DNA from: Taklimakanibacter lacteus
Lineage (GTDB): Bacteria > Pseudomonadota > Alphaproteobacteria > Rhizobiales > Aestuariivirgaceae
Direction: 5' to 3'
DNA length: 64,000 nucleotides
NCBI GenBank assembly: GCA_003576695.1
Contig: QOZQ01000005.1
Coordinates: 248,001-312,000 of the forward strand
Each line of letters starts with the position of its first letter. Within the stretch, counting starts at the first letter, position 1. Below, one piece after another: positions 35,216 through 54,707 of this stretch. Under the pieces are notes generated by a model that did no database searches, had not been told where the DNA came from, and was given only the letters and a program-made list of their open reading frames with translations. The translations under genes were made by a program, and so were the position numbers.

Positions 35216-36447
35216 GACGACGCCAGGCGTCTCACCACATCGAGAAGCACATTGGCGCCGGCGACGAGATCCGTCTCGGGCGTGAATTCCTTCGGGTTGT
35301 GACTGATGCCGCCAATGCTCGGCACGAAAATCATCGCCGAGGGCGCAATGCGCGCGATCATCTGCGCATCATGGCCGGCGCCGGAGGTCATGCGCCGGCA
35401 GCTGAGACCGCGCGTTTCGGCGGCCGCTTCGATGCGCGCAACCAGATCCCGGTCGAAAACCACCGGCTCGAAACGGGCGAGACGCTCGGCTGAAATGACG
35501 ACACCCGTTTCGGCCGCAAGTGCCGCAAGATAATCGGCAAGCGCCTGCTCCTCGGCTTTCAGGCGCACTTCGTCGGGGTCGCGCAGATCGACCGTGAAGA
35601 TCGCCCGCGCGGGGATGACATTGATGGCGTTAGGCTCGAAGGCGATGGTGCCGACCGTCGCCACGGTTCCGGATCGCGAGGCCGCCGCGCGGCCCTGCAG
35701 GAAGGTGATGACGCGCGCCGCGGCGTGGCCCGCATCCTGGCGCAGCGCCATCGGCGTCGTGCCGGCGTGATTGGCAACACCTTCGATGGTGACCCGCTGC
35801 CAGGAAATGCCCTGGAGATTCTCGACAGCGCCAATGGCGACGCCTTCACGCTCGAGCACCGGCCCCTGCTCGATATGGAGCTCTAGATAGGCTTCGGGCT
35901 GGAGAAAGCCCGGCTCTTCGCGCCCGGCATAGCCAATATGCGCGAGCTCTTCGCCGAGCCTGATGCCGTCCGTGTCCCTGACGGCCAGAGCGTCATCGGC
36001 GCCGAGCCCTCCGGCATGGACGAGAGATCCCATCATGTCGGGCGCGAAGCGAACGCCCTCCTCATTGGTGAAGGCCGCGACGACGATGGGCTGCCTCGGC
36101 ACGAAGCCCGCCTCCTTCAGGGTTTCGACGACTTCGAGCCCCGCCAGGACGCCATAGCAGCCGTCGAAGATGCCGGCATCGATCACCGTGTCGATATGGG
36201 AGCCCAGCATCAACGGCTTCGCTTCCGGCGCCTCGGCGTCGTTCCAAAGCGCGAAGATATTGCCGATGCGATCGATCTTCACCGCGAGTCCGGCATCCTT
36301 CGCCCAGGCAACGAACTTGTCGCGACCGAGCTTGTCTGCATCGGAAGCGGCAAGCCGGGTGAGCTTGCCGTCGGCCGTCCGGCCGAGCTCGCCCAATTCC
36401 CTGAGGCGGGCCAACAGGCGTTCGGGATCGATCGCGAGATTGGTCAC
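35212..36447 (-). CDS. M20-family Zn amidohydrolase (N-carbamoyl-L-amino acid hydrolase/allantoate amidohydrolase-like)
   Basis: This 411-residue protein has the family motifs in order: LMLGSHIDTVIDAGIFDGCY with two metal ligands near residue 80-95, AFTNEEGVRF near 127, LELHIEQGPVLE near 190 (substrate and metal), ANHAGTTPMALRQDAG near 228 and SIGGISHNPKEF near 380. Members cleave N-carbamoyl or ureido groups from amino acids, allantoate or beta-ureidopropionate. Its 5' end overlaps the M24 gene upstream by four bases, so these two form an operon convergent to the SHMT-like gene. A PuuE-like ring opener plus an AllC-like hydrolase in one locus suggests ureide breakdown. Confidence 0.92.
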   Translation of the reverse strand: MTNLAIDPERLLARLRELGELGRTADGKLTRLAASDADKLGRDKFVAWAKDAGLAVKIDRIGNIFALWNDAEAPEAKPLMLGSHIDTVIDAGIFDGCYGVLAGLEVVETLKEAGFVPRQPIVVAAFTNEEGVRFAPDMMGSLVHAGGLGADDALAVRDTDGIRLGEELAHIGYAGREEPGFLQPEAYLELHIEQGPVLEREGVAIGAVENLQGISWQRVTIEGVANHAGTTPMALRQDAGHAAARVITFLQGRAAASRSGTVATVGTIAFEPNAINVIPARAIFTVDLRDPDEVRLKAEEQALADYLAALAAETGVVISAERLARFEPVVFDRDLVARIEAAAETRGLSCRRMTSGAGHDAQMIARIAPSAMIFVPSIGGISHNPKEFTPETDLVAGANVLLDVVRRLASS

Positions 36448-37619
36448 CGGATCACCGGCAACTCACGCGGCGCGCGTTTGGTCAGGAGGCGCGGCCCATC
36501 CTTCGTCACCGCGATATTCTCTTCATGGACGATCATCTTGCCGGGCGCATATTCCATGCCGGGCTCGATGGTGAGGACCATATTCTCGACGATCAGCGTG
36601 CCGTCGCCCAGGCGATGCGAGGGCGGCTCGGTCAATTGCAGGCCGAGGCCGTGGCCGAGGCGGCCGACATTATTGCCGATGGCGCCCGCTGCATCGATGA
36701 TCTTCGCCATGGCGCGCCAGACATCATCGGTCTTCGCCCCCGGCACCGCGGCGGCGATGCCGGCCTCGGTCGCCTGCCACAAGGCCTCATGCACGCGATG
36801 GACCTCATCGGCGACCCGGCCCACCGCGTAGTTGCGGTCGAAATCGCAGAAATAGCCGTCAAAGGTCGATCCCGTGTCAATGAAGAGAATGTCGCCTTCC
36901 TCGATCGCGCGGTCATGCGGCCCGCAGACGATCTGCGCCACGCCGCCCGGCCCCGATATGGCCGGCAGGAAGGGCGTCGCATCGGCGCCGCGCCGGGCAA
37001 TATCGATGCGCAATTTGCGCACCACCTCGCGCTCGCTCTCGCCCATGGAAATCTGCGCTGGCAGCGCCGCATAGGCGTCACTGGCGAGCCCGCATATATA
37101 ATGTATGTGGTCGATCTCGGCCGGGGTCTTGACCATGCGGATTTCCCAGATGCAAGGCGAACCGTCTTCGATGGCGGAGCCCAGCCTTTGGCGCAATGTG
37201 AGAAAATCCGCGACCGGCATGCGCAAGGCCATTTCGCGGCCCATCTCGGCACCGACCCGGCCATGCTTGCGCTTCAGCCCGCCGATCGTCGCGGCGAGAA
37301 GCGAAAGGCCGTCATCCTCAGGCACGGGCGCCGGCCAGGTGCGGATATCCTTCACCCAAGTGAGCGCCATTTCGGGCGCGCCGATTTCCGGAATGACGGC
37401 GATCGGCGCTCCCTCCAGCGGCACGATGACGAACCAGGGGCGCGTCGGGCTTTCCCAGAACTGGGTGTCGAAGCCGGTGAAATAGCGGATATTGGGCGGC
37501 GCGGTCAGCAGAAGCGCATCGAAGCCATGTGCATCCATGATCTTCTGCGCGCGGAGCGTGCGGCGCTCGAATTCAGCCGGGGTGAAACCGCGTCGGGGGA
37601 TCTTCTGCTCGGTCGCCAC
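36444..37619 (-). CDS. M24-family hydrolase (Xaa-Pro peptidase/creatinase-like)
   Basis: The product is about 391 residues. The pita-bread metal site is complete: FIDTGSTFDGYFCDFDRNYA (two Asp) near residue 245, GHGLGLQLTEPPSH near 325, MVLTIEPGMEY near 348 and VHEENIAVT near 365. The N-terminal creatinase-like domain begins near residue 15 and includes ALLLTAPPNIRYFTGF. The chosen start is GTG with AAAGGA upstream. The frame stays open far upstream, but that extension is an antisense shadow of the ureohydrolase gene. Homologues include proline dipeptidases, creatinase and ectoine hydrolase. With intact metal ligands a peptidase-like hydrolysis is favoured over creatinase chemistry. Confidence 0.9.
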   Translation of the reverse strand: MATEQKIPRRGFTPAEFERRTLRAQKIMDAHGFDALLLTAPPNIRYFTGFDTQFWESPTRPWFVIVPLEGAPIAVIPEIGAPEMALTWVKDIRTWPAPVPEDDGLSLLAATIGGLKRKHGRVGAEMGREMALRMPVADFLTLRQRLGSAIEDGSPCIWEIRMVKTPAEIDHIHYICGLASDAYAALPAQISMGESEREVVRKLRIDIARRGADATPFLPAISGPGGVAQIVCGPHDRAIEEGDILFIDTGSTFDGYFCDFDRNYAVGRVADEVHRVHEALWQATEAGIAAAVPGAKTDDVWRAMAKIIDAAGAIGNNVGRLGHGLGLQLTEPPSHRLGDGTLIVENMVLTIEPGMEYAPGKMIVHEENIAVTKDGPRLLTKRAPRELPVIR

Positions 37620-37751
37620 TTCATGTCCTTTCGGTCTTGTCAGATATTCCTGGCTGCGCCATCCTTGCAAATATCCGCCTCCTTTCGCAGGGAAATCCGG
37701 CGAAAACCTCGCAAAAGCGAATAAGTTCTGCAGCAACTGGACCGGTCCCCC

Positions 37752-38714
37752 ATGAAAAACGATCCGCGCTTTCAGCCTTTCGACGCCAGCAAGACGCCAC
37801 GCTTCGCCGATATCGCGACATTCCTGCGCACGCCGCGTCATCCGATCGGCCCTGAAATCGATATCGCCATAGCGGGCGTTCCCTTCGACATGGGGGTCAA
37901 TTTCCGCTCCGGCGCCCGCCACGGCCCGGCCGCCATCCGCGAGGCCTCGCGCATCATCCGCCAGATCCACCCAACCAGCGGCATCGCGCCGTTCCGCCTG
38001 TGCAATGTCGCCGATGTCGGGGATGCGACCGTCAATGCGCTCGACCCCGCCGCCAGCATCGGCCTCATCGAGGCCTTCTTCCGCGAGGTTCACGGCGCCG
38101 GCGCAACGCCGATCGCCATTGGCGGCGATCATACGATCCCGCTCCCCATCCTGCGCGTCATCGCGCGCGACAATCCGGTCGGCGTCGTCCAGTTCGATTC
38201 GCATGCCGACACGCTCGATGAATTGCTGGGCACCAAGATCAATCACGCGACCACCTTCCGCCGCGGCGTCGAGGAAGGGCTGATCGATCCCAGGCGCACG
38301 ATCCAGATCGGCCTGCGCGGCAGCCGCTTCAGCGAGAATGACATCAAATGGGGCGCCGACGCCGGCTTCCGCATCATCACCATCGATGAATATGAGAAGA
38401 TCGGGCGCGACGCCGTCATCCGCGAGATCGACCGCGTCATCGGCAAGGGCCGGACCTATGTCACCTTCGACATAGACGGACTTGACGCCGCCTATGCGAT
38501 GGGTACCGGTGTGCCGGAAGTCGGCGGCTTCTCGGTGCGCGACGCGCAAGTGATGATCCGCTCGCTGCAAGGCAAGCACCTGGTCGGCGCCGATATCTGC
38601 GAGGTGGCGCCGGTCTTCGACCCGACCGGCCAGACGGCCCTCAATGCCGCCAATCTCCTGTTCGAGATGCTGTGCGTCATTGCCGACAGCCGGACCAATC
38701 ACGCCTCGAGATAG
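37752..38714 (+). CDS. Ureohydrolase (agmatinase family), copy 2
   Basis: This 320-residue protein has metal motifs AIGGDHTIPLPIL near residue 125, VVQFDSHADTLDEL near 147 and TFDIDGLDAAYAMGTGVPE near 240. The central motif has Ser between Asp and His (DSH), where copy 1 and most agmatinases have Ala (DAH), but all metal ligands are kept. It is divergent from the M24 gene across about 130 bases, and its 3' end overlaps the convergent glutamine-synthetase-like gene by 16 bases. Two clearly different ureohydrolases in one locus imply two guanidino intermediates or a hetero-oligomer. Confidence 0.92.
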   Translation: MKNDPRFQPFDASKTPRFADIATFLRTPRHPIGPEIDIAIAGVPFDMGVNFRSGARHGPAAIREASRIIRQIHPTSGIAPFRLCNVADVGDATVNALDPAASIGLIEAFFREVHGAGATPIAIGGDHTIPLPILRVIARDNPVGVVQFDSHADTLDELLGTKINHATTFRRGVEEGLIDPRRTIQIGLRGSRFSENDIKWGADAGFRIITIDEYEKIGRDAVIREIDRVIGKGRTYVTFDIDGLDAAYAMGTGVPEVGGFSVRDAQVMIRSLQGKHLVGADICEVAPVFDPTGQTALNAANLLFEMLCVIADSRTNHASR

Positions 38715-40042
38715 CGCTGCACCTCGGCCGCGCTCACCGCCTTGCGGAGGGCTGCGTCCTCGGCCTCGCACAGCGCCGCATAATGCTCGACGAAGGGCGC
38801 GCCGAACAGTTCGCGGGCCTTGGCGCTCTGCCGGAATGCCTTGGTCGCCGACAGGAGATCGAGCGGCAGGCGCTCGGCGCCTTGCGGAATCTCGTTGGGG
38901 CCGCCGGACGTGATGGGCGGGGCTTCAAGCTGGAGCTTGCGCGCGAGGCCATCGAGGCCTGAGCCCAGCATGGCGGCGATCGCCAGATGCGGGTTGAGGT
39001 CGCTGCCCGGCAGGCGCAATTCGAGGCGCGTCATGGCCTCGCTCTCGGCGGCAACCCGCACCGCGGCCGCGTAGTTATAAGGCGCCCAGCTCACCGTCTT
39101 CGGCGCCCAGCTTCCCGGCGCCAGACGGCGATAGGCATTCACCGTGTTGCCGATCAGCGGGAAGATCTCAGGCACCGTCGCGATGATGCCGGCAAGGAAG
39201 GATTTCGCCTCGGGCGAGAGGCCCTGCGCATCGGCGTGGTCGGCAAAGAGATTGCGGCCCGTCTTGCGCTCGACAAGCGACAGGCTGATATGGCCGCCAA
39301 TGCCGGGAAAGCCCGCACCCAGCAGCGACATGAAGGACGCCGTCATGCCGCGCCCGCGGCAGAAGGCCTTGGTGAACAGGCGGAAAAAGGCGGCATCATC
39401 GGCGGCGCGCATGGCCGGCTTGTGCTTCAACGTCGCTTCGAAGCAGCCAGGCCCCAATTCGACGCTGAGCGAGAAGAGGTCGATATCGCCGGCGGTGAGG
39501 CAAGCCTCGAGATCGCTGACGAAACCCGCATGGGTGGCCGCGGTCTGACCCGACCAGCAGCGATTGTCGGGTGCGAAGGGCACGAGATCGGCGAATTTCT
39601 TGGCCCGCAGCGACTCGGCTGTCTCATTGAGGACGATGAACTCGAACTCGGTCGCGACATGCGCGTCGAGACCCAATGCGTCAGCCCTGGCGACCTGGCT
39701 GGCGAGCACGTTGCGGGGATCTATGGGCGCCTGCGGACCAGCATAGAAGGCAACGAGCGCGGCCGCGTCCTTCTCGAAAGGATAGCGGCGCAGGGAGGCG
39801 GCATCGTAGGCGATCGCCTCGCTGCCATAGGGTCCGGGAAACATGATCTGTTCGGCCAGATCCCATTTCGGCAGGACATTAGCGAACAAGGCGGTCTCGG
39901 CCTGGCCCAGCAGTTCCTCCCGCCTGAGCCGCCGCTCGCGGAAAATGCCGGCATAATCGAACAGGCCAACATGGACGACATCGGCGTTCAGTGCTGCAAG
40001 GGCCTTGGCAAGCTCGGCCCGCAAGCCGGGTGGTCTCGACAT
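38699..40042 (-). CDS. Glutamine synthetase family protein (gamma-glutamyl-amide synthetase-like)
   Basis: The product is about 447 residues. It has an N-terminal beta-grasp region (HVGLFDYAGIFRERR), then the catalytic barrel: ATEFEFIVLNE near residue 140, SVELGPGCFEATLKHKPAMR near 195 (metal Glu residues), GGHISLSLVERKTG near 255, AYRRLAPGSWAPKTVSWAPY near 320 and LELRLPGSDLNPHLAIAAML near 355. The pattern matches PuuA/IpuC-type gamma-glutamyl-amine ligases rather than housekeeping GlnA. The ATG has GGGAG nine bases upstream; a GTG start 36 bases earlier is possible. Its gene product may mask an amine by gamma-glutamylation before oxidation. Confidence 0.9.
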   Translation of the reverse strand: MSRPPGLRAELAKALAALNADVVHVGLFDYAGIFRERRLRREELLGQAETALFANVLPKWDLAEQIMFPGPYGSEAIAYDAASLRRYPFEKDAAALVAFYAGPQAPIDPRNVLASQVARADALGLDAHVATEFEFIVLNETAESLRAKKFADLVPFAPDNRCWSGQTAATHAGFVSDLEACLTAGDIDLFSLSVELGPGCFEATLKHKPAMRAADDAAFFRLFTKAFCRGRGMTASFMSLLGAGFPGIGGHISLSLVERKTGRNLFADHADAQGLSPEAKSFLAGIIATVPEIFPLIGNTVNAYRRLAPGSWAPKTVSWAPYNYAAAVRVAAESEAMTRLELRLPGSDLNPHLAIAAMLGSGLDGLARKLQLEAPPITSGGPNEIPQGAERLPLDLLSATKAFRQSAKARELFGAPFVEHYAALCEAEDAALRKAVSAAEVQRYLEA

Positions 40043-40105
40043 CGGAAGCTTCTCCCACAGTGGCCTCAAGTTAAGCACAGGCGCGCGCGCCGGCGGAAGC
40101 CCTGC

Positions 40106-40711
40106 TCACAGAAGATCGATGAGCACCACAAGGACAAGCGCCACGGCCAGAGTCAGATTGATCAGCCGCGACGCCTTCGGGTCACGCAAGATACCGGTGA
40201 GGGCCGATCCGGCCAGCGCCCAGAGCGTGTGGATGGCGATGATGGCAAGGCTGAGGATCAGGCATTTGAGGGCGGCATCGATCACGGCATCCGCAGGAAC
40301 AAGCTTCGCCTTGGCATAGACCGCGCCGATGGCGAGATAGGCCTTGGGATTGGCGATGCCGAGCACCAGGCCCGCAAGCCAGCCGGGCACCGGTTGATCG
40401 CGCTGATCGGAGAGCGGCGGCGCTGTGGCGATCCGAAAGGCGAGATAAAGGATATAGAGCGAGGCCGCGATGGTGATCGGCAGAGCAAGCTGCGGCGAGG
40501 AGAAGAGCAAGGCCGAGGCGCCGAGCGCCATGGCGAGCAGGACGGCAATAGTGCCAAGATTGATGCCGATGAAATAGGAGAGCGAGCGCCGCAACCCATA
40601 GGCGGCCGATACCGCGGTTACGCTCAATGTGGTCGGCCCCGGACTGGCCATCAACGCCGCGGCCGAAAGCAGGAGCGCGATGAGGCCCGGGATGGAAATA
40701 TCCTGCAGCAC
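40106..40711 (-). CDS. LysE/RhtB family amino acid exporter
   Basis: This 201-residue membrane protein has six predicted hydrophobic segments and the family N-terminal motif AALMASPGPTTLSVTAVSAA followed by YGLRRSLSYFIGINLGT near residues 18-55, and GIANPKAYLAIG near 118. The start is GTG. LysE/RhtB proteins export amino acids or amino-acid-like metabolites. It lies between the ureide-like cluster and the dimethylformamidase-like cluster, on the same strand as both, with about 60 and 50 bases of separation. Confidence 0.9.
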   Translation of the reverse strand: MLQDISIPGLIALLLSAAALMASPGPTTLSVTAVSAAYGLRRSLSYFIGINLGTIAVLLAMALGASALLFSSPQLALPITIAASLYILYLAFRIATAPPLSDQRDQPVPGWLAGLVLGIANPKAYLAIGAVYAKAKLVPADAVIDAALKCLILSLAIIAIHTLWALAGSALTGILRDPKASRLINLTLAVALVLVVLIDLL

Positions 40712-40761
40712 ATTGCGAGACTAGCGCTCGCCCAAAGCGGGGTCTTGAACGATCGTGCATC

Positions 40762-42960
40762 TCAGCCTTGTCTATCAAACCGCTTCAGGACATTCAGGGT
40801 CATGCGCGAGACCTCATTGTCATAGAAGTTCCAGGCCATGGCGCCGGCCCAGGCGATGGAGCCGGTGGAGAAGACGGCGCCGCCGCCGTCGGTCTCGAAA
40901 TAGACGAGGTCGGAGCGGATCGCCTCGTTCTGGGTGCCCGACATATCGGGTGTCGGATCGAGCATGTCCTCGGGCGTCATCAGATATATGTCGGTATGCG
41001 ATCGCGAGCTGCCGAGAATGAGAGCCTGCGGCGGCGTCCCCAAAGTGAAATCGGCACGATCGATTTCCATGCCGGCGGCACCCTTTCCCGAAAGGCCAAA
41101 GGCGCCGAATTTGCGACCGGGGCTTCGATCGATGCCGGCAAAGATGAAATCGGCCCGCGGGTCGGAAGCGGCCTCGGTCAGCTCATAGGGCTCGGAAATA
41201 TCGAAGCCCTGCGAGCTCATGATGAGGCCGGTGAGATGCGTCGAAGGCCTGCCATTGCGCCGCCACAGCCCGCCATATTCGCCGGTGAAGGCGTGATGGA
41301 ACTGGCCCGGCCCCGGCTCCCATGGTCTTATCCCCGCTTCCGAGCGGCGGCATTCGATGACACCCGGATGCCTGTCGCTGAAGGAGATGCGCCAGTAGAA
41401 GCCGTTGCCGCCGAGATATATCAGCTTGCCACCGCGATCGACGAAGCCCTGCACGGCATCGAGCATTTCCAGCGAGTAGTATTCGGGATGGGTGCCGGTC
41501 AGCACCACATTATAGCGGCGCAGCAGCGACAGGCCCTCCCTGTGCAGGTCCTCATCGGTGATAACGTCACAATCGATACCGTGATGGTCGAGCCAGCCGG
41601 TGATATGGGTGTCGGCATTGAACTGCCAGATATTGGAGCCGAGGCCGCCCAGGAAGCCCTTCACCCCCGGCTGCAGGTCCAGCACCGGCCGGTTGCGCGA
41701 TGAATGGAAGACGCCGCTGCCATCGGCATGGACTTCATAGAAGGAAAAGCCGAGCTCAGGATGTTCCTGCAGGAAGGCATGATGGCGGTCGATCTCGACC
41801 AGCCGTCCCATGCCGACCTCGGTGCCCGGCACATCGAGGCCGAGCCGGTGATTGGCGTAAGCGAGATAGCTCGCCGTCGGCATGAGGAAGCAGACCGTGT
41901 TGCCGGTGGCGCCGTGGCGGGGCGGCCTGACCGCGAAGACGCAGTGATAGGCCTGCGTCTCATCATCGTCGGGCACGAGACGAATTGCATAGAGGCCGCT
42001 CCTCAGATCGGCGGGAAGCGTCACGGTGAAGTCGGTTACCCATCCGGCATCGGTCATGTCGTCAGCATGGAAGTGAATGGCCGAATAGAGCTCGCTCTGT
42101 CGGCGCCAATCCAGGCATTGGCCGGTCCAGCGCCACCCGGTCATGGCGCGGGCCGGACATTGCACGGTCACGCCGTGGAGCTGATGCGGCGAGGCGTCGA
42201 TGACATCGGTACCCTCCATGGCGCGTGAAAAATCCCAATGCGCGATGAGATCGGGGCTGCGGCTGAGCGTCTGCGGCAGCGCCAGGCGGGTCATGGCTTC
42301 AAGCGGTTCGAGGGGACGATCGAACAGGACAGGAGAATCGATCTTGCCGTCGAAGTGCCCCTCGCCCGGCGCCCGCGCGGCGATCATCACCGTGGTCATC
42401 TGGCCCTCTAACTTGCGCGGGGCAGCAGACGTCCGGCCGGTCTCCACGATGTGCCCGGCCGGAGACACTGCGCTGAGCTGCAGGGTCTTCGCTGCTTTGT
42501 CGCAGGAGACGACAAGCAGCGTCCATTGACCGCGGATAAGCGTTTCCTTGAGCGAGAGCTTCGTTTCACCGAGCCTGGCGCCGGGCCGGCCATTGCTGTC
42601 GATCAGGAGCTCCAGGCCGGGATTTGAAAGGAGGAAGATGGTGCGTTCGCCGCTCATGAGCGTGGGCTGGACCGGCACCGCCAGGGTGAAGCTCGCAAGA
42701 TCGGCCAGCACGTTGCCGCGATCTTCGATCCGCACATAAGAGCCCGGACGGATCGCTTGCCGGCGTGCCGGCCGCACGCCGCCCAGATCGAGCGTGACTG
42801 GTTCATCCTTGTAGCCCGGCCCCTGCGGGTGGCGATCACCCTGGATGACGCGGCGCAGATCGGCGCGATAGAAGCGCGCGCCATAGGATGAAGCCTTGAC
42901 CTCGATTACCTCGCCAGGCGCTGCGCTCAGTGTGTTGGTGTAGGCGATGAGTGAAAGCAT
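40762..42960 (-). CDS. N,N-dimethylformamidase large (beta) subunit-like protein
   Basis: The 732-residue product is close to the large subunit of N,N-dimethylformamidase (about 760). The N-terminal half is beta-rich with a LamG-like section (HFDGKIDSPVLFDRPLEPLE, then LIAHWDFS, residues about 100-300). The second half resembles a glutamine-amidotransferase-like fold: VCFLMPTASYLAYANHRL near residue 357, FYEVHADGSGVFHSSRNRP near 407, GTHPEYYSLEMLDAV near 489 and LGGNGFYWRIS near 516. Characterised DMFase holds one iron with Tyr, Tyr and Glu. Tyr368, Tyr408, His491 and Glu493 here have near-matching spacing (recalled, not aligned). It starts right after the small-subunit-like gene, with GAGG upstream. 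Confidence 0.85.
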   Translation of the reverse strand: MLSLIAYTNTLSAAPGEVIEVKASSYGARFYRADLRRVIQGDRHPQGPGYKDEPVTLDLGGVRPARRQAIRPGSYVRIEDRGNVLADLASFTLAVPVQPTLMSGERTIFLLSNPGLELLIDSNGRPGARLGETKLSLKETLIRGQWTLLVVSCDKAAKTLQLSAVSPAGHIVETGRTSAAPRKLEGQMTTVMIAARAPGEGHFDGKIDSPVLFDRPLEPLEAMTRLALPQTLSRSPDLIAHWDFSRAMEGTDVIDASPHQLHGVTVQCPARAMTGWRWTGQCLDWRRQSELYSAIHFHADDMTDAGWVTDFTVTLPADLRSGLYAIRLVPDDDETQAYHCVFAVRPPRHGATGNTVCFLMPTASYLAYANHRLGLDVPGTEVGMGRLVEIDRHHAFLQEHPELGFSFYEVHADGSGVFHSSRNRPVLDLQPGVKGFLGGLGSNIWQFNADTHITGWLDHHGIDCDVITDEDLHREGLSLLRRYNVVLTGTHPEYYSLEMLDAVQGFVDRGGKLIYLGGNGFYWRISFSDRHPGVIECRRSEAGIRPWEPGPGQFHHAFTGEYGGLWRRNGRPSTHLTGLIMSSQGFDISEPYELTEAASDPRADFIFAGIDRSPGRKFGAFGLSGKGAAGMEIDRADFTLGTPPQALILGSSRSHTDIYLMTPEDMLDPTPDMSGTQNEAIRSDLVYFETDGGGAVFSTGSIAWAGAMAWNFYDNEVSRMTLNVLKRFDRQG

Positions 42961-42962
42961 GG

Positions 42963-43265
42963 TCAGACCTCAGGCCCGCCGAGATCGCGCCAGCGGCGCA
43001 GGAAGACATCGCGCTCGGCGCTGGCGAGATCATGGTACTCGATACCCGCGATCTCGCTGATCGGTTCGCCGCGCCGGGCCGGAAGGCGGCCGAGTTGCCA
43101 GCGCCGATAGGGCTCCTTGCACAGGATGACATATTTGCCCTCGGGCCCCAGGCCCCGCATCACATTGAGGATGCGTTGCAGGCCGGGGCTGCGATAGCCG
43201 AAGGGATCGCGCAGGAATTCATGCGCGAAGGGCACATCATCCGCGGTGATCCGATAGCGCGCCAT
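42963..43265 (-). CDS. N,N-dimethylformamidase small (alpha) subunit-like protein
   Basis: The product is 100 residues. HEFLRDPFGYRSPGLQRILN then GKYVILCKEPYRRWQLG and ERDVFLRRWRDLGG correspond in order to the small DMFase subunit as I remember it (NPFGYR..LQRVHNYF, GKYYIYSERE, VFLRRIED). The characterised subunit is about 130 residues, so this one has a shorter N-terminus. GGGGAGG precedes the ATG, and the large-subunit gene follows two bases after the stop, which supports 1:1 expression. The pair gives the best evidence that the neighbouring 732-residue protein is a true DMFase-type amidohydrolase and not just a distant relative. Confidence 0.78.
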   Translation of the reverse strand: MARYRITADDVPFAHEFLRDPFGYRSPGLQRILNVMRGLGPEGKYVILCKEPYRRWQLGRLPARRGEPISEIAGIEYHDLASAERDVFLRRWRDLGGPEV

Positions 43266-43313
43266 GCAACCTCCCCTTGATTGGCGAGGCGGCCGAAGCC
43301 GCCCCGCTTCCGT

Positions 43314-44675
43314 TTACGCCGCTTTCCTGGCGATGCCGGCATGCACCTCATCGAGCGTGCGCCGCAAGATGCCGAACAGTTCAGCGATCTCCTTTTCGGT
43401 GATGATGAAAGGCGGCGCCAGGACGATCGACTGGCCGAGCGGCCGGCAGATCAGGCCGTTCTTCAAGGCCTGACGCGCCACTCTTTCGCTGACATCGAGA
43501 CTGCCGGCGAAAGGCTCCTTGGTCTTCCTGTCGGCGACCATTTCGAGGGCGCCCATCAGGCCGACACCGCGCGCTTCCCCGACGATCGGATGATCTGCCA
43601 TGGCGCGCAGATGTTTCTGGAAGGCGGGGGTCACGGCTTTGACATTGGCGAAGGCGCCGCCCTCGAGGATCTCGTCGAGCGCCGTCATGGCAATGGCGCA
43701 GCCGACCGGATGCGCGCCCGTGGTGAAGCCCGTCGGCAGCTCCTCATATTTGGCGCAGGCCTTCTCGATCCGCTCGGTCATCTCGGGCGAAAGGATGATG
43801 GCGCCCATCGGAAAGAAGCCGGCGGTGATGACTTTCGAGGCCACCACCATATCGGGCTTGATGCCGTAGGTGAGCGAGCCCCAGAATTCGCCGGTGCGGC
43901 CGAAGCCGCAGATCACCTCATCGGCGATGAGCGGAATTCCGTATTTCCCCAGCACCGGCTGGATAGCCTGGAAATACCCTTCGGGCGGCGGGATGACGCC
44001 GCCCGCGCCCATCACCGGCTCGGCGAAGAAGCCGGCAATATGGTCGGCACCGGTATTGCGGATGGTCTGCTCGAGCTCGAGCGCCAGCCGGGCCGAGAAG
44101 TCCTTCTCGCTCTCCCCCGCCTGGGCTTCGCGCCAATGATGCGGACAGGTGAGATGGCGGACCTCCTTGAGCGGAAGCCCCGAGGCCGATTTCACATAGT
44201 CCTTGCCGGTGAGGCTCGCCGTCATCACCGTCATGCCGTGATAGGCATTCCTGCGGCTGAGCAGCAGGCGGCGATGCGGCTTGCCCTCCGCTTCCGCCAG
44301 GAACCACAGCAGTTTCACCACCGTGTCATTCGCCTCGGAGCCCGAATTGGCATAGAAGACGCGATTCGCCTCCATCGGCGCCAGCTTGACGATGCGCTCG
44401 GAAAGATCGAGCGCCGACTGGCCGACCCGGCCGAAGAAGGCGTGATAGGCCGGAAGCCTGGCATAAGCGCGCTGCGCGGTCTCGATCAGTCTCTTGTTGT
44501 CGAAGCCGAGCACGACATTCCACAGGCCGGAATTCCCCTCCAGATATTTGCGGCCGCGGTCGTCATAGATATAGACGCCTTCGCCCCTGTCGACGATGAC
44601 CGGCCCCTGCTCTTCGAGCGTCGGTATGTGCGAGAAAGGATGCAGGAAGGCACTGGGATAGTTGCGTTTACTCAT
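43314..44675 (-). CDS. Class III aminotransferase (amine:pyruvate or polyamine transaminase-like)
   Basis: The product is about 453 residues. Motifs: YIYDDRGRKYLEGNSGLWNV near residue 38, FYANSGSEANDTVVKLLWF near 105, RRNAYHGMTVMTASLTGK near 143, DEVICGFGRTGEFWG near 245 and the PLP lysine in VVASKVITAGFFPMGAI near 270. The sequence style resembles beta-alanine/putrescine-pyruvate transaminases. The ATG at 44675 has GGGAGC upstream. It lies between a polyamine-type binding protein and the DMFase-like subunits on the same strand, so removal of an amino group from an imported diamine-like amide is a sensible proposal. Confidence 0.93.
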   Translation of the reverse strand: MSKRNYPSAFLHPFSHIPTLEEQGPVIVDRGEGVYIYDDRGRKYLEGNSGLWNVVLGFDNKRLIETAQRAYARLPAYHAFFGRVGQSALDLSERIVKLAPMEANRVFYANSGSEANDTVVKLLWFLAEAEGKPHRRLLLSRRNAYHGMTVMTASLTGKDYVKSASGLPLKEVRHLTCPHHWREAQAGESEKDFSARLALELEQTIRNTGADHIAGFFAEPVMGAGGVIPPPEGYFQAIQPVLGKYGIPLIADEVICGFGRTGEFWGSLTYGIKPDMVVASKVITAGFFPMGAIILSPEMTERIEKACAKYEELPTGFTTGAHPVGCAIAMTALDEILEGGAFANVKAVTPAFQKHLRAMADHPIVGEARGVGLMGALEMVADRKTKEPFAGSLDVSERVARQALKNGLICRPLGQSIVLAPPFIITEKEIAELFGILRRTLDEVHAGIARKAA

Positions 44676-44724
44676 AGGATTGCTCCCGGTTCCATGGTTG
44701 CGAATGGACAAAATCGTTCCCTTT

Positions 44725-44746
44725 CGTCCCGCTGGAGAGCGGGACG
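44725..44746 (-). other. Intergenic stem-loop after the polyamine-type binding protein gene
   Basis: CGTCCCGCT and AGCGGGACG form a perfect 9-bp stem with a four-base loop, placed between the binding-protein stop and the transaminase start. No T-run follows on the minus strand. It is probably an RNA-stability or attenuation hairpin of the transporter mRNA. Confidence 0.7.
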
Positions 44747-44782
44747 ATCGGCAAGTTGCTGCGATCTCCTCAGGCCTTCTGG

Positions 44783-45820
44783 TCAGTTGGCCTTGATGCG
44801 CGACCAGGCCCGGTCATAAAGCTTCAGGTCGGTGCCAAGATCCTCGAATATCTGCAGTTTCGCGCGCACCTCGGGCGGCGGATTGATCGCGGGATTGTTC
44901 CTGAGCTCGGACGGCAGCAACTCGATCGCCGCCTTGTTGACCGAGCCGTTGGTCAGCATCGTCGTATTGAGGGCAGAGATCTCCGGCCTCAACAGATATT
45001 CCATGAACAGCTTGGCGTTATCCTTGTTGGGCGCCGTCTTCAGCATGCACAGATTTTCCTGATACATGGTGGCGCCTTCTTCCGGGATGGCGAAGCCGAG
45101 ATCGTCCGGTTTCTTGTTCACATTGAGCACGGCGCCGACATACCAGTGCGAGGCGGCCATATCGCCCGACTCGATCAGCGGCACCACATCATAGCGGAAG
45201 GCCGCGACATTGGGCTTCTGCTTGAGGATGAACTCCTCGGCGAGCTTGATGTCGGCGGGATCGCGCGAATTCACGGACTTGCCGTTCATGATGAGGCCGA
45301 CGCCGAGCGTCTCGCGCAAATCGTCGAGCAACGTGATGCGGCCCGGATTCTTCGCGGCATAGTCGAAGAGCTGCTGCCAGGACTTGATATCGCCACCCGC
45401 CACTTTCCGGTTGTAGAAGATGCCGACCGGACCCCAGGCATAGGGCAGGCAGAAATCGGCCTTGGGATCCTGCTTGGAGCGGAAGGCCGAGGGATCGATA
45501 TTCTCGAAGCCCTTGGACTGGTTGATATGGCTTTCCTCGATGAGGCCGAGCTGCAGCATGATGTCGGCCATATGGACCGACGGCCAGATCAGGTCATAGC
45601 CCGTGGCGCCGGCCTGGATCTTGGCCAGCATCTCCTCATTGGTCGAATAGGTGTCGAGCGAGACCTTGACGTCGTGCTCCTTGGCGAACTTATCGATCAC
45701 CTCGGGATTGATGTATTCACCCCAGTTATAGAGATGAAGCTCACCCGCCGCATTGGCGGGGACCGTCGCCAGCACCACCAGTGCCGCGCCCGACAAAACC
45801 ATATTTTTGAACCAGCTCAT
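44783..45820 (-). CDS. Polyamine-type ABC transporter substrate-binding protein (PotD/PotF family)
   Basis: This 345-residue exported protein has a signal peptide ending TVPANA. The mature start ELHLYNWGEYINPEVIDKFA is the PotD/PotF hallmark, followed by YSTNEEMLAKIQAGATGYDL and IWPSVHMADIMLQLGLIEE. It also has PEEGATMYQENLCMLKTAPN near residue 245. AGGAGG precedes the ATG. PotD-like proteins bind spermidine, putrescine or similar cations. The DMFase-like genes downstream suggest that the ligand may be an amide of an amine. It lies twenty bases after the potC-like gene. Confidence 0.92.
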   Translation of the reverse strand: MSWFKNMVLSGAALVVLATVPANAAGELHLYNWGEYINPEVIDKFAKEHDVKVSLDTYSTNEEMLAKIQAGATGYDLIWPSVHMADIMLQLGLIEESHINQSKGFENIDPSAFRSKQDPKADFCLPYAWGPVGIFYNRKVAGGDIKSWQQLFDYAAKNPGRITLLDDLRETLGVGLIMNGKSVNSRDPADIKLAEEFILKQKPNVAAFRYDVVPLIESGDMAASHWYVGAVLNVNKKPDDLGFAIPEEGATMYQENLCMLKTAPNKDNAKLFMEYLLRPEISALNTTMLTNGSVNKAAIELLPSELRNNPAINPPPEVRAKLQIFEDLGTDLKLYDRAWSRIKAN

Positions 45821-45840
45821 TTACTTCCTCCTCTTCCTTT

Positions 45841-46677
45841 TCAGTTCTTGCGTGATCTGAGATAGAGGCCGGCGCTCGCCACCACGAAGGAGAAGGCGAT
45901 CAGCAGAACGGCCAAAGCATTGATTTGCGGCCTGATGCCCCGCCGCATCATGGCGAGGATGAAGAGCGGCAAGGTCTGCGTGTCGACGCCGGCGATGAAA
46001 TAGGTGATGACGACGTCATCGAGCGAGATGATGAAGGCGAGCAGGAAGCCGCCAATGACGCCCGGCATGATCAAGGGCAAGGTCACCCGCCTGAAGGTCG
46101 TCAGCGGACCCGCTCCCAGATCGGCAGAGGCGATCTCGAGCGTGTTGTCCATGCCGGCAAGCCGCGCCGCCACGATGATATAGACATAGCTCGACAGGAA
46201 GGTGCAGTGGCCGATGATGATGGTGGCGAGGCTGAGCTTGAAGCCGACGCCGACGAAGAAGATCAGAAGTGCTATGCCGAGCACGATATCGGGCATCATC
46301 ATCGGCAGGAACAGAAGCCCCTGATAGATGCGCTTGCCGATGAAATCATAGCGGGCGGTGGCCAGCGCCGTCGCCGTCCCGATGACGGTGGAGATGGCGC
46401 TCGCCGCCAAAGCGACGACCAGGCTGTTGCGCAAGACCTGGAAAATACGGTCGGGATTTTCGGTGAAGGCGGCATCGAATGCCGCGCCCGCCGGTTGCAT
46501 GCCGAACAAGGTGCGATACCAGTCGAGCGTGAAGCCCTCCCACACCGCCATGTTGATGGCATTGGCATTGAAGGAATAGACGGTGATAAGAGCGAGCGGC
46601 GCGTAGAGGAAGACCAGGAACGCCGCGCCATAGAGATTGAGTGCCGCCCAGCCGGGGGAAAGCCGCTGCCTAGGCAT
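45841..46677 (-). CDS. Polyamine-type ABC transporter permease (PotC family)
   Basis: The product is about 278 residues with six hydrophobic segments. It has VYSFNANAINMAVWEGFTLD followed by WYRTLFG near the N-terminus, the EAA loop ASADLGAGPLTTFRRVTLPL near residue 175, and IISLDDVVITYFIAGVDTQT near 215. These are PotC/PotI characters. GGGGGAGG precedes the ATG, which lies eight bases before the end of the upstream potB-like gene. An upstream in-frame start would overlap potB more and lacks a site. Confidence 0.92.
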   Translation of the reverse strand: MPRQRLSPGWAALNLYGAAFLVFLYAPLALITVYSFNANAINMAVWEGFTLDWYRTLFGMQPAGAAFDAAFTENPDRIFQVLRNSLVVALAASAISTVIGTATALATARYDFIGKRIYQGLLFLPMMMPDIVLGIALLIFFVGVGFKLSLATIIIGHCTFLSSYVYIIVAARLAGMDNTLEIASADLGAGPLTTFRRVTLPLIMPGVIGGFLLAFIISLDDVVITYFIAGVDTQTLPLFILAMMRRGIRPQINALAVLLIAFSFVVASAGLYLRSRKN

Positions 46678-47593
46678 GGCCCACCTCCCCCACCGGCTGC
46701 GACTTGCCGGCGCGACGCATCCACAGCGCATAGAGCAGAATGAGGACCAGCACGCTCGCCATCACGATCATTGCGAGCGTCGAGCCGAAGGGCCAGTTGC
46801 GCGACTGAAGGAACTGCCGCTCGATGACATTGCCGGTCATCTGCACTTTCGAGCCGCCCAGGAAAGCCGGCACGATGAAGTTGCCGAGCGCCGGGATGAA
46901 GACGATGACGGCGCCGCCGGCGATGCCGGGCGCGGTCAAGGGCAGGATCACCCGCCTGAAAGTCTGGAAAGGCGTCGCTCCCAGATCCTGCGATGCCTGC
47001 ACCAGCGACCAGTCGAGCCGCTCGACGCTCGCATAGATGGGCAGGAACATGAAGGGGATGAGCACATAGACAAGTCCGACGATGACCGCGAATTCGGTGA
47101 AGATCATGTTGAGCGGCGCATCGATGAGGCCGAGCGACATCAGGGCCGTGTTGATGGCGCCGGTAGGCCGCAACAGCAGAAGCCAGGCATAGATGCGCAC
47201 CAGCAGGTTGGCGAAGAAGGGCAGCGTGATGGCGAAGAGGACAAGGTTCTTCGCGACGGGCCCCATGCGGCTCACCCAGAAGGCCACCGGATAGCACACG
47301 ATCAGCGAGACGATGACGGTGATGACGGCGTAATAGACGGAATTGAGGATGATCTGGATATAGAGAGGCTCGAACTCCTCCCCGCCGCCGAGCGGCCAGC
47401 CGAAAACGCGGCCATAGCTATAGGGATAGAACGACCAGACGACGCCGCCATAGAGGCCCGGCTCGAGGAGGCTGTAAACCACCATGATGCCGAGCGGAAT
47501 CAGGAAGAAGGCACCGAGCAGCAAGGTGATGGGCGCGAGAAGAAGGACAACCGCCCGCCGCCGCTGGCTGGTCATGGCGCTTCCAGCCGCCAT
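46670..47593 (-). CDS. Polyamine-type ABC transporter permease (PotB family)
   Basis: The product is about 307 residues with six hydrophobic segments. It has LVRIYAWLLLLRPTGAINTA near residue 132 and the EAA loop ASQDLGATPFQTFRRVILPL near 200, followed by GIAGGAVIVFIPALGNFIVP. These are PotB/PotH characters. The start overlaps the PotA stop: GTG at 47596 and ATG at 47593 are both possible. It is the second channel subunit with PotC. Confidence 0.92.
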   Translation of the reverse strand: MAAGSAMTSQRRRAVVLLLAPITLLLGAFFLIPLGIMVVYSLLEPGLYGGVVWSFYPYSYGRVFGWPLGGGEEFEPLYIQIILNSVYYAVITVIVSLIVCYPVAFWVSRMGPVAKNLVLFAITLPFFANLLVRIYAWLLLLRPTGAINTALMSLGLIDAPLNMIFTEFAVIVGLVYVLIPFMFLPIYASVERLDWSLVQASQDLGATPFQTFRRVILPLTAPGIAGGAVIVFIPALGNFIVPAFLGGSKVQMTGNVIERQFLQSRNWPFGSTLAMIVMASVLVLILLYALWMRRAGKSQPVGEVGHA

Positions 47594-48708
47594 CACGCCG
47601 CCCCGCTCTTCATCAGATGCGGCGACGTCGCCTGGTAATGCAGCGTTACCGTCTGGCCGGCTTTCAGATTCAAGCCGCCGGCGGCGCGTGCATGGCGTTC
47701 GAGCGCCATGACCGGCATGCCATTGCCGAGGCGCCCGTGCAGATGAAGATCGGTTCCGACGAAAACGATATTCTCGATCACCGCCACGATGCTTCCTGAA
47801 GCAGCGTTCCCGCCCGGCACGAGCGCAAAATGCTCGGGCCGCAGCATGACATCGACCTGCTCGCCGGCGGTGAAGCCGCCGGCCGTCACCGCAATGGCGG
47901 GGCCACCCGCGACCTGGACGCGCGCGGCGCCATTGTCCTGTGTGAGCGTGCCGGTGAAGATGTTGCTGGTGCCGATGAAGCCGGCGACGAAACGGCTGGC
48001 CGGCTGGTCATAGATCTCGGCCGGGGTGCCGAGCTGCAGGATCCGCCCCTTGTCCATGACCGCGATGCGGTCGGACATGGTCAGCGCCTCCTCCTGGTCA
48101 TGGGTGACAAAGATGAAGGTGATGCCCACCGTGTGCTGGAGATTTTTCAACTCGATCTGCATCGACTGGCGAAGCTTGCGATCGAGCGCTGACAGCGATT
48201 CATCGAGGAGCAGCACGCGCGGCCGGTTGACGAGCGCCCGCGCCAAAGCGACACGCTGCTGCTGGCCACCCGAAAGCTGCGCCGGCTTGCGCCGTTCGAG
48301 CCCCGACAGGCCGACAAGCCGCAGCACATCGGCAACCCTTGTCGCTTCCTCGGCGCGGGGAACGCCCGCCACCTGCAGGCCGTAGCCGACATTGCCGGCC
48401 ACCGTCATATGCGGGAACAGTGCGTAGTTCTGGAACACCGTGTTGAAGGGGCGCCGATGCGCCGGCACGCCGCTCATCGGCCGGCCATCGAGATAGATCT
48501 CGCCTTCATCGAGATCCTCGAAGCCCGCAATCGTCTTGAGCAGCGTGGTCTTGCCGCAACCCGAAGGGCCAAGAAGGGTGAGGAATTCGTTGTTCCTGAT
48601 CGACAAGGTGATGCCGTCGAGCGGCGTCACCACGCCGCTTTCGGGGGTGCGAAACGACTTGCGTACATTATCTACGCGCAGCAACTCGTGATCGGAGGCA
48701 TGTCGCAT
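47593..48708 (-). CDS. Polyamine-type ABC transporter ATP-binding protein (PotA family)
   Basis: This 371-residue protein has Walker [19 protein letters not shown]-loop [13 protein letters not shown], signature [19 protein letters not shown] and Walker [13 protein letters not shown]. The residue after Glu is Ser, not the usual Pro. A C-terminal TOBE regulatory domain starts near residue 275 ([14 protein letters not shown]). It is the first gene of the minus-strand operon. No strong ribosome binding site precedes the ATG. A perfect 12-bp palindrome lies about 23 bases upstream. Confidence 0.92.
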
Positions 48709-48730: not shown

Positions 48731-48742
48731 GCATTTAAATGC
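48731..48742. promoter_or_regulatory. Candidate operator in the potA/GntR divergent promoter
   Basis: GCATTTAAATGC is a perfect 12-bp palindrome within the roughly 105-base gap between the divergent potA-like and GntR genes. The half site GCATTT is repeated eleven bases later. The GntR product is the natural candidate to bind here, but this is inferred only from position and symmetry. Confidence 0.5.
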
Positions 48743-48814: not shown

Positions 48815-49753
48815 GTGACCGGCAAACCACCCGCCCTCAGAAGCGAACTGCAGACCGAGCTTGTCAGCCGGATCGGCGAATGGATCCGCTCCCGCGCCCC
48901 TGAGAGGACAATGCGCATCCGGGAGGCGGTGCTGTCGCGCGAGCTCGGCGTTTCGCGCACGCCCATCCGCGCCGCCCTGCAACGGCTGGTCGGCGACGGC
49001 ATTCTCGAAGCGCATGCGCTCGGGGGCTATGTCGTGCTGCAGATGCCGCCCCTTGCCGCCGATCCGGCGGCGCCGGGCGATGAGGCCAGCGGCCTCCACG
49101 GCCTGCTGCTGCGCGACATGATCCTCAATGAGCTGCCGGACCCCGCCACCGAAAGCGCGCTGATGCGCCGTTATGATGTCGGCCGTGGCGAGATATTGCG
49201 TGCCTTGCGGCGGCTGATGCGCGAAGGCCTCGCCGAGCCTCTGCCCGGAAGAGGCTGGTCGATGCTGAAATTCGACAGCGAGCAGATGCTGAAGAGCTAT
49301 CACCTGCGTCATGTGCTCGAACCGGCGCTGCTCACCGATCGCGATTATGTGGTGGATCGCGCGGCGCTGGAGCGGCTGAAGGCGGACCATCGGAACGCCC
49401 TTCTCGCTTTGTCACCCAGCTCTCCCTGGCGCGAGCTTTTCGAGCTCGACGCCACGTTCCACGAGACGCTGGCGCGCGGCAGCAACAATGATCTCATCGT
49501 CGACATCATCCGGCGGCAGAACCGCCTGCGGCGCCTCGCCGAATTCGTCGGCTATTCCCGCCTGGAGCGGATCCGCGACTCGATGGAGGAACATATCGCC
49601 ATCATCGATGCGCTTCTCGCCGGTGATCCGGCATGGGCATCGGCCCTGATGCGCCGGCATCTGGTGACCTCGCGCGCCGAAACTGCGGAACATTTCAGCC
49701 GCGACCTCGAAGCGGCGCGCTCGGCGTCGGGCGGCATCGACAAGCTCAGATAA
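48815..49753 (+). CDS. GntR family regulator with two winged-helix-like regions and FCD-like domain
   Basis: The product is about 312 residues with a GTG start, longer than the usual 220-240. Residues 10-72 form a GntR winged helix (REAVLSRELGVSRTPIRAAL, then QRLVGDGILEAHALGGYVVL). Residues about 95-150 look like a second copy (TESALMRRYDVGRGEILRAL, then RRLMREGLAEPLPGRGWSML). The FCD-like helical domain follows (LFELDATFHETLARGSNNDL near 210). It is divergent from the polyamine/DMFase-like operon, which makes it the likely ligand-responsive regulator. Confidence 0.85.
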   Translation: MTGKPPALRSELQTELVSRIGEWIRSRAPERTMRIREAVLSRELGVSRTPIRAALQRLVGDGILEAHALGGYVVLQMPPLAADPAAPGDEASGLHGLLLRDMILNELPDPATESALMRRYDVGRGEILRALRRLMREGLAEPLPGRGWSMLKFDSEQMLKSYHLRHVLEPALLTDRDYVVDRAALERLKADHRNALLALSPSSPWRELFELDATFHETLARGSNNDLIVDIIRRQNRLRRLAEFVGYSRLERIRDSMEEHIAIIDALLAGDPAWASALMRRHLVTSRAETAEHFSRDLEAARSASGGIDKLR

Positions 49754-53921: not shown

Positions 53922-54707
53922 TCAGAATGGTTCGAGCGTCAATTCACGTGCCATGACGATATTGCCGGCCGTCAAGCCGCAATCGACCGGAATTGCCGCC
54001 CCGGTGATGGCGCCGGCCGCCTCGGAAGCAAGGAAGCCGATGACGCGCGCCACATCGATCGGCTCGACGATCCGCCCCAGCGGATACCAGCGCATGAGCG
54101 TTGCCAGGACCTCGGGATTCTTCTTCGCCCGCTTGTCCCAGAGCGGCGTCCTGACCGTTGCCGGCAGGACGATGTTGGAGCGGATGCCAAAACGGCCATA
54201 TTCGAGCGCCAGCGAGCGGGTGAGCGAGATCATGCCGGCCTTGGCGGCGCTATAGGCCGGATCGCCCAGTGCGGAAAGTCCGTTGACCGAGCCGACTGCG
54301 ATGATCGAGCCTTGGCGTTTCTCCTGCATGGCCGGCAGCACGGCATGGGCGCAGTTATAGGCGCCGTTGAGATTGCCGTTCATATCCGCCTGCCAGCCGG
54401 CGGGATCGGTGCGCGCCAAGGTGGGATGATCGGAGAAGCCGGCATTGTTGATGAGGATGTCCACCGCCCCCAGCTCGCCGGCAAGATGGGCGAATGCCTT
54501 CGCAATCGTCCCGGCATCGCCGATGTCGGCGGTCGCATGGGCGATCTTCGTTCCTTCCCGCCTCAGCTCAGCGGCAAAGGATGCGACGCTGTCCTTCTTG
54601 TCGATGGCCGCAATCGCCGCCCCTTCACCTGCAAAGTAACGGCAGACAGCCTGGCCGATGCCGCCCGCAGCGCCGGTGACCGCGACGACCTTGCCCTTGA
54701 AGCTCAT
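53922..54707 (-). CDS. SDR family oxidoreductase
   Basis: The product is about 261 residues. It has VVAVTGAAGGIGQAVCRYFA at the N-terminus, NNAGFSDHP near residue 88, the catalytic serine in IIAVGSVNGLSALGDP near 135 and YSAAKAGMISLT near 150. It ends GAAIPVDCGLTAGN. The ATG lies in the ATGA overlap with the preceding gene, so the 69-base longer frame is not needed. Together with two Gfo/Idh/MocA enzymes it gives the operon three distinct NAD(P) oxidoreductases. Confidence 0.92.
   Translation of the reverse strand: MSFKGKVVAVTGAAGGIGQAVCRYFAGEGAAIAAIDKKDSVASFAAELRREGTKIAHATADIGDAGTIAKAFAHLAGELGAVDILINNAGFSDHPTLARTDPAGWQADMNGNLNGAYNCAHAVLPAMQEKRQGSIIAVGSVNGLSALGDPAYSAAKAGMISLTRSLALEYGRFGIRSNIVLPATVRTPLWDKRAKKNPEVLATLMRWYPLGRIVEPIDVARVIGFLASEAAGAITGAAIPVDCGLTAGNIVMARELTLEPF

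Follow-up and report, generated by a model that had tools for sequence, protein, structure and literature searches.

The window analysed here is a stretch of 64,000 nucleotides from the alphaproteobacterium Taklimakanibacter lacteus (Rhizobiales; assembly GCA_003576695.1, contig QOZQ01000005.1, positions 248,001 to 312,000 of the forward strand). It contains a run of minus-strand genes, 38699-48708, in the order potA, potB, potC, potD, aminotransferase, dmfA1, dmfA2, LysE and a glutamine-synthetase-like (GS-like) gene. Here dmfA1 and dmfA2 denote the small and large subunits of an enzyme resembling N,N-dimethylformamidase (DMFase). The features, numbered within the window, are these:

40762-42960, minus strand: dmfA2-like large (beta) subunit, 732 residues, with a DMFA2_C domain, predicted iron ligands Tyr368, Tyr408 and Glu493, and His491 and Asn519
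42963-43265, minus strand: dmfA1-like small (alpha) subunit, 100 residues, assigned by profile and fold match, 2 bases from dmfA2
43314-44711, minus strand: class III omega-aminotransferase (Pfam), nearest solved relatives 3nui, 5ztx and 4e3q, named pyruvate transaminase
44783-45820, minus strand: PotD-like binding protein (Pfam SBP), placed by tree and pocket comparison in a subfamily of its own, whose fixed pocket differs from that of PotD
45841-46731, minus strand: potC-like permease (Pfam permease), start possibly nearer 46677 according to the gene caller
46670-47596, minus strand: potB-like permease (Pfam BPD_transp_1)
47593-48708, minus strand: potA-like ABC ATPase (Pfam ABC_tran and TOBE_2; TIGR01187 above its cut-off)
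48731-48742, no strand: palindrome GCATTTAAATGC in the gap between gntR and potA, a candidate operator, unique in the window
48815-49753, plus strand: GntR/FCD-family regulator, 312 residues, divergent from the operon (FCD, E 1.4e-17; GntR, E 7.4e-15, in two stretches)
40106-40711, minus strand: LysE-type exporter (LysE, E 4.6e-12), 50 bases past dmfA2; it directly follows dmfA2 also in locus L039
38699-40078, minus strand: GS-like ligase, 27 bases past LysE (Gln-synt_C, E 5e-72; under the NCBIfam cut-offs shown)

The first-pass annotation, made from the letters of the sequence, had placed potABCD, a transaminase and the dmf pair on one strand, with a divergent GntR gene and a palindrome. Open reading frames and Pfam bear this out: the neighbours were recognized as a class III aminotransferase, a solute-binding protein, two permeases, an ABC ATPase and a GntR protein with FCD domain. 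Judging from spacing alone, the LysE and GS-like genes may belong to the same operon as the dmf genes. A scan for promoters and terminators stayed at chance level (two promoter-like sites against 2.2 expected, four terminator-like sites against 6.3). The genome itself, 5.78 Mb in 24 contigs, has four DMFA2_C genes, the dmfA2 at 40762-42960 among them.

What enzyme do the two dmf genes encode? By sequence and modelled fold, 42963-43265 and 40762-42960 are the small and large subunits of a member of the DMFase family. DMFA2_C is recognized in the large subunit at E 1.6e-91 (307.9 bits, cut-off 27). Among solved structures its best matches are N-acetyl-(R)-beta-phenylalanine acylase, at E 7e-138, and the large subunit of DMFase, at E 1.4e-121. 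Its AlphaFold model (pLDDT 90.9) gives a TM-score, on the query, of 0.87 to acylase chain 8huy_B and of 0.92 to DMFase chain 6lvb_A. No Pfam model matched the small subunit. A single-sequence search placed it with 6lvb_B at E 0.0011, and a profile of 26 relatives reached the DMFase small subunit at E 7.1e-12, the next match being at E 0.098. Its AlphaFold model (pLDDT 91.6) has as its top three fold matches in Foldseek the DMFase chains 6lvb_B, 6lvv_B and 6lvd_B (TM 0.75, 0.74 and 0.68; E 1.2e-5 for 6lvb_B), and the remaining matches among the best 50 listed have a probability of 0.25 or less. The small gene is thus related to the DMFase alpha subunit, as the first-pass annotation had supposed.

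According to PMC7686228, the iron of DMFase is held by Y399, Y440 and E521, H519 is essential, the large subunit alone is inactive, and no activity is reported on benzamide, n-hexanamide or acetamide. The pAMI2 DMFase protein is numbered as in that paper. On alignment, Y399, Y440, E521, H519 and N547 of DMFase fall on Y368, Y408, E493, H491 and N519 of the window protein. The first four of these window positions that concern the metal and catalysis (Y368, Y408, H491, E493) are invariant in 51 of 51 large subunits; N519 is kept in 46, with Asp in the other five. Beside the second ligand, Tyr408, stands Glu409 in 13 of the 14 rows of the window's clade (near copies counted), and the equivalent residue is Asp in DMFase and most other large subunits. 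The window enzyme therefore has the residues of an Fe(III) Tyr-Tyr-Glu site, from which iron binding and amide hydrolysis are predicted. Tyr368, Tyr408 and the motif H-P-E-Y had earlier been noticed at near the spacing of the known iron ligands, and under alignment the site proves to be retained.

Does this make it a dimethylformamidase proper, acting on N,N-dimethylformamide (DMF) or small formamides? Like the Paracoccus enzyme (PDB 6lvb; DmfA1/DmfA2), it has the two-subunit build, both folds, the Tyr/Tyr/Glu triad, the catalytic His and the active-site Asn; family membership and the identical iron site are what would speak for such an activity. It is, however, only 33-36% identical to DMFase (36% to the pAMI2 protein) and belongs to a separate clade. 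In a tree of 51 large subunits, whose bootstrap was not fully settled, the window lies in a clade of 14 rows with 100/100 support, and pAMI2 DMFase falls outside it. (The tree took gene calls longer than 600 residues only; it omitted L035, L038, L093, L120 and L121, which repeat or extend other loci, and the copy of genome G003.) DMFase has a LuxR-type regulator, DmfR, whereas the window has a GntR gene and an operon for import and transamination; neutral DMF would hardly need an importer. Moreover, the chromid paralogue of P. aminophilus, a second dmfA1A2 locus carried on pAMI5, is reported in PMC4543880 as not linked to DMF use. DMF degradation was rejected on the grounds of clade and regulator, and a formamidase of this narrow kind seems to us scarcely credible.

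How widely is the operon conserved? At E 0.001 the large subunit has a match in 30 of 100 relatives, a set that includes the window's genome. Five genomes keep gntR<>potABCD-aminotransferase-dmfA1-dmfA2 in unbroken order: the window's own, its congeners G001, G002 and G003, and G063, a member of another family; G004 (same genus, 87% complete) has a 44% paralogue of the large subunit only. The survey of gene order called for by the first-pass annotation thus finds it in three of the four other same-genus genomes and once outside the family. With up to one mismatch allowed, the palindrome GCATTTAAATGC occurs only once in the window (0.13 expected). The three other genomes of the genus that have the operon carry an exact copy in the same place, between gntR and potA (L035/L055, L038/L056 and L039); it was not found at the G063 operon. 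Members of the clade are rare: with a threshold of 48% identity, they occur in 3 of 397 genomes of the order, the window's own included, and in samples of 385 genomes of the class and 398 of the phylum only the window's own genome has one. Some lie on plasmids of Rhodobacteraceae M382, Pseudorhizobium flavum and Rhizobium CB3060, and one plasmid member crosses the class boundary, in the betaproteobacterium Burkholderia vietnamiensis G4.

Two of the same-genus genomes, G001 and G003, have a second, distant dmfA1-dmfA2 pair (L036, L037) about 13.5 kb from the first, flanked by SDR-like and ABC-ATPase-like genes. Outside the clade, further dmfA1-dmfA2 pairs stand near transporters, which are Pot-like in L064 and L112 and have binding proteins of the oligopeptide type in L096 and L097. 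This hints at a wide range of amides among the substrates of the DMFase family.

What does the importer carry? Like E. coli PotABCD, it is a four-gene ABC system with a PotD-type binding protein. The window PotD is 29% identical to that of E. coli, and of 12 pocket positions compared, the polyamine contacts of the E. coli PotD structure, W34, Y37, S83, D168 and E171 are kept. The other seven are replaced (T35G, Y85H, W229Y, W255Y, D257E, Y293N, Q327F). This set is common to all 26 members of the subfamily, save for Tyr or Phe at 229 and one Trp at 85. Since the pocket departs from PotD at 7 of 12 positions and is near-fixed among the members, a plain polyamine is unlikely to be the ligand. The label 'polyamine importer', given to these genes at first sight, is probably wrong.

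The same pocket bears on a second candidate activity, that of an N-acyl-beta-amino acid acylase like the N-acetyl-(R)-beta-phenylalanine acylase (PDB 8huy), with the aminotransferase then taking the beta-amino acid. The large subunit finds its best full-length sequence match in that acylase, which also heads its fold matches, and omega-aminotransferases can take beta-amino acids. However, the identity is only 35%, the DMFase fold fits as well, and the acylase entries found list a large chain only, without the small partner encoded in the window. Acidic residues in the pocket of a Pot-type importer would be better suited to a ligand with a free ammonium end than to an N-acyl acid. We consider an acylase of this type unlikely.

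What else accompanies this importer when the dmf genes are absent? In all 18 examined loci that have a subfamily PotD but lack dmfA1 and dmfA2, a hydrolase of the S58/P1 peptidase family stands beside it, at the end of the potABC genes. These 18 comprise nine genomes (all those with a subfamily PotD other than G000 and G063) and nine of the 30 plasmid records besides M382 and P. flavum; L142/L155 and L148/L149 are near copies. Their S58 proteins are 53-60% identical to that of L059, which is DmpA-like (1b65, E 5.5e-125). DmpA is reported in PMC9570944 to accept a beta-alanyl donor. Among ten control PotD relatives (22-31% identity), none has an S58 gene within 7 kb, nor does any of the seven that have adjacent pot permeases, which three lack; the ten were chosen from 24 rows, two of them the subfamily itself, with mostly clinical or repeated rows omitted by choice.

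The Pot-S58 operons (Shinella, Aminobacter, Thioclava, Roseateles plasmids) thus share with the window the importer subfamily and its pocket, and differ in having the S58 hydrolase instead of, or besides, the iron enzyme. Both hydrolases adjoin the importer in L057, L058, L059, M382 and P. flavum. In the same-genus operon genomes and G063 the iron enzyme alone is beside the importer and the S58 genes are elsewhere; the four of these S58 loci that were viewed have no such pot operon alongside. PotDs linked to dmf group together in a single clade (100/100), and S58 occurs on both sides of their branch, so that S58 is probably the older partner of the importer, on a tree whose root is unsure and whose outgroup branches are long.

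Which genes stay with dmfA2 itself? Among metabolic genes, none accompanies the clade more constantly than the aminotransferase: 13 of the 14 clusters contain an orthologue of at least 52% identity (all 12 loci tested, and L057). In MED193 it lies just beyond L062, and in the stretch of L061 examined none was found. A related GntR gene occurs in 12 of 12 loci tested, about 8 kb off in CB3060. The window's importer type adjoins the dmf genes in 9 of the 14 rows, GS-like genes are near dmfA2 in eight and S58 peptidases near five, and FGase-family and aldehyde dehydrogenase (ALDH) genes are near several. Genes for alanine racemase and D-amino-acid dehydrogenase are found close to the P. flavum and B. 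vietnamiensis clusters, and one for alanine dehydrogenase close to that of M382, which fits an enzyme turning pyruvate into alanine. Correlations with the distances among dmfA2 sequences are seen for the distances of dmfA1 (r 0.80), aminotransferase (0.94) and gntR (0.87), with n=12 each and none of 2000 permutations as high; for potD (r 0.91, n=8, 1/2000); and for GS (r 0.93, n=7, 0/2000). L057 and L058 being near copies, this set used L058 alone, and the GS set, used also for the FGase comparison below, took 48 of 56 matches and omitted eight partial or weak ones.

Could the neighbours simply be functionally unrelated? The variation of transporters among clusters might suggest so. It is set against the same order in two families, the close spacing in the window and an aminotransferase that persists even on the betaproteobacterial plasmid, and we think mere juxtaposition very improbable.

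The GS-like genes raise a further alternative, in which free polyamine is imported, gamma-glutamylated by the GS-like enzyme and oxidized by aminotransferase and ALDH, and DmfA1A2 cleaves the gamma-glutamyl amide in place of PuuD. The window's gene run extends into a GS-like gene, and the frequency and co-divergence of GS given above speak for this scheme, as do the ALDH and FGase-family genes of several rows. A distant dmfA2 in L053 (G069; 32%, no recognised dmfA1) likewise stands among FGase, GS-like and ALDH genes. Several relatives thus resemble Puu/transaminase polyamine catabolism in having GS-like, aminotransferase and ALDH genes, but in the window's gene run the GS-like gene is the sole counterpart, with no gene of PuuB, PuuC or PuuD type.

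That GS-like protein scores 148.9 bits against GGputSyn, where the NCBIfam cut-off is 650. Its identity to the counterparts in L059, L060 and L061 is no more than about 28-32%; the GS proteins of T64, M382, MED193 and P. flavum are 78-89% alike. In L055, L039 and L040 the stretches viewed beside the operon contain no GS-like gene, and the PotD pocket is not PotD-like. Finally, 12 of 33 FGase genes, in seven genomes, start within 5 kb of a GS gene, and 10 of those 12 are outside the studied dmf operons, so that another hydrolase may already serve a gamma-glutamyl module. These counts led us to reject the FGase-family neighbour as a partner tied to dmf, suggesting instead that FGase and GS-like genes are a separate module. 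We judge the gamma-glutamyl route unlikely.

Our preferred reading is that this is an amide-utilisation operon, performing amide import, Fe(III)-dependent hydrolysis and transamination of the amine. It draws support from the pairing of the importer subfamily elsewhere with another amide hydrolase (18 of 18 loci) and from the constancy of the aminotransferase within the dmfA2 clade; we put its probability at roughly 60 per cent. The importer would bring in a small amide with a free amino (cationic) end, which the DmfA1A2 iron enzyme would cleave in the cytoplasm. The freed primary amine, or beta- or omega-amino acid, would then be transaminated with pyruvate. Some relatives may recycle the resulting alanine (with alanine racemase, D-amino-acid dehydrogenase or alanine dehydrogenase), and in some an ALDH may oxidize the aldehyde. 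The iron enzyme would thus do a job like that of the DmpA-like S58/P1 hydrolase in other operons with the same importer. An import-hydrolysis-transamination scheme for the amide of a (poly)amine had been sketched at the outset; its outline survives these comparisons, while its polyamine importer probably does not.

Several observations weigh against this scheme. The substrate is deduced from gene company alone, and the pocket positions come from an alignment at low identity, in which residue 229 shifts by one in another alignment. No orthologue of the aminotransferase (at least 50% identity) occurs in any of the 18 S58-only loci; it therefore travels with dmf and not with the importer, which tells against a single shared pathway. 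(At one such locus, in P. aeruginosa RW109, another aminotransferase, 33% identical, and an ALDH gene lie nearby.) S58 and DmfA behind one importer could mean two different substrates. Because 5 of the 14 clade rows use other transporters (Opp-type in MED193, APC in AC27/96 and CB3060, PAAT plus APC in B. vietnamiensis, another Pot system in L061), the importer does not fix the substrate. Co-divergence with dmfA2 may come from shared ancestry alone, and that of GS suits the gamma-glutamyl route.

What, then, might the substrate be? Our first guess is an amino-acyl (alanyl, glycyl or beta-alanyl) amide of an amine, or a beta-alanyl dipeptide, a choice we hold as decidedly tentative. N-acyl diamines, including N-formyl diamines, are also possible. 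Put more generally, this Pot-type subfamily might import amino-ended amides or beta-peptides, with S58/DmpA and Fe(III) Tyr-Tyr-Glu hydrolases replacing one another behind it, a proposal to which we give somewhat less than even odds. If true, it would supply a physiological role for both enzyme families, S58/DmpA and DMFase type. DMFase-like enzymes are named after an industrial solvent, and we know of no natural substrates for most of them or for DmpA-type peptidases. One importer paired with either hydrolase narrows the substrate question to a short list of assays, and cautions that environmental surveys should not count this PotD subfamily as evidence of polyamine uptake.

We conclude that a known enzyme family stands here in a real, conserved operon, in a setting that we did not find described. 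In the literature examined, which left out most subscription journals, dimethylformamidase was tied to no Pot-type importer or transaminase; for the P1/S58 peptidase with PotD, neither peptidase term was among the matches listed, and on bacterial phenolamide degradation nothing on point was among those listed.

Three other candidate themes were rejected. A histone-deacetylase-like acetylpolyamine hydrolase as general partner occurs only in the MED193 cluster (L062/L119), where its nearest matches are HDAH and propanil hydrolase. Ectoine degradation was considered from the downstream M24 and M20 genes; the M24 gene has no NCBIfam match at 1e-30 and the M20 gene is of the hydantoinase/carbamoylase type. 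A CoA-mutase theme was drawn from genes beside L061 and concerns one genome only. At L061, dmfA1-dmfA2 adjoin a CoA-mutase-like gene with MeaB and an AMP-ligase-like gene, and the Pot system there has the classical PotD pocket at most positions.

Some further features of the window and its relatives deserve mention. A gene at 54704-55891 (minus strand), called as a protein of 395 residues, has no Pfam match at 0.001. The regulator at 48815-49753 has two GntR-type helix-turn-helix matches followed by FCD, an unusual double winged-helix layout to which matches to a second helix-turn-helix at about residues 110-157 also point. In the PLSDB record of pAMI2 (L126), an 'AAK-1 beta-lactamase' at 6096-6359 lies inside an IS3 transposase gene and looks like a false prediction. 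An FGase-family gene (6004-6606, minus strand) stands about 7 kb from a GS-like gene just before the window's first base. Downstream of the operon, on the minus strand, are a hydantoinase/carbamoylase-type M20 enzyme and an M24 creatinase-like enzyme (35212-36447 and 36444-37640), whose orthologues in L039 stand with a diaminopropionate ammonia-lyase. An agmatinase-family gene (37752-38714, plus strand) overlaps the 3' end of the GS-like gene 38699-40078 tail to tail by 16 bases, and a near copy of it (89%) lies close to the second dmf locus in G001 and G003.

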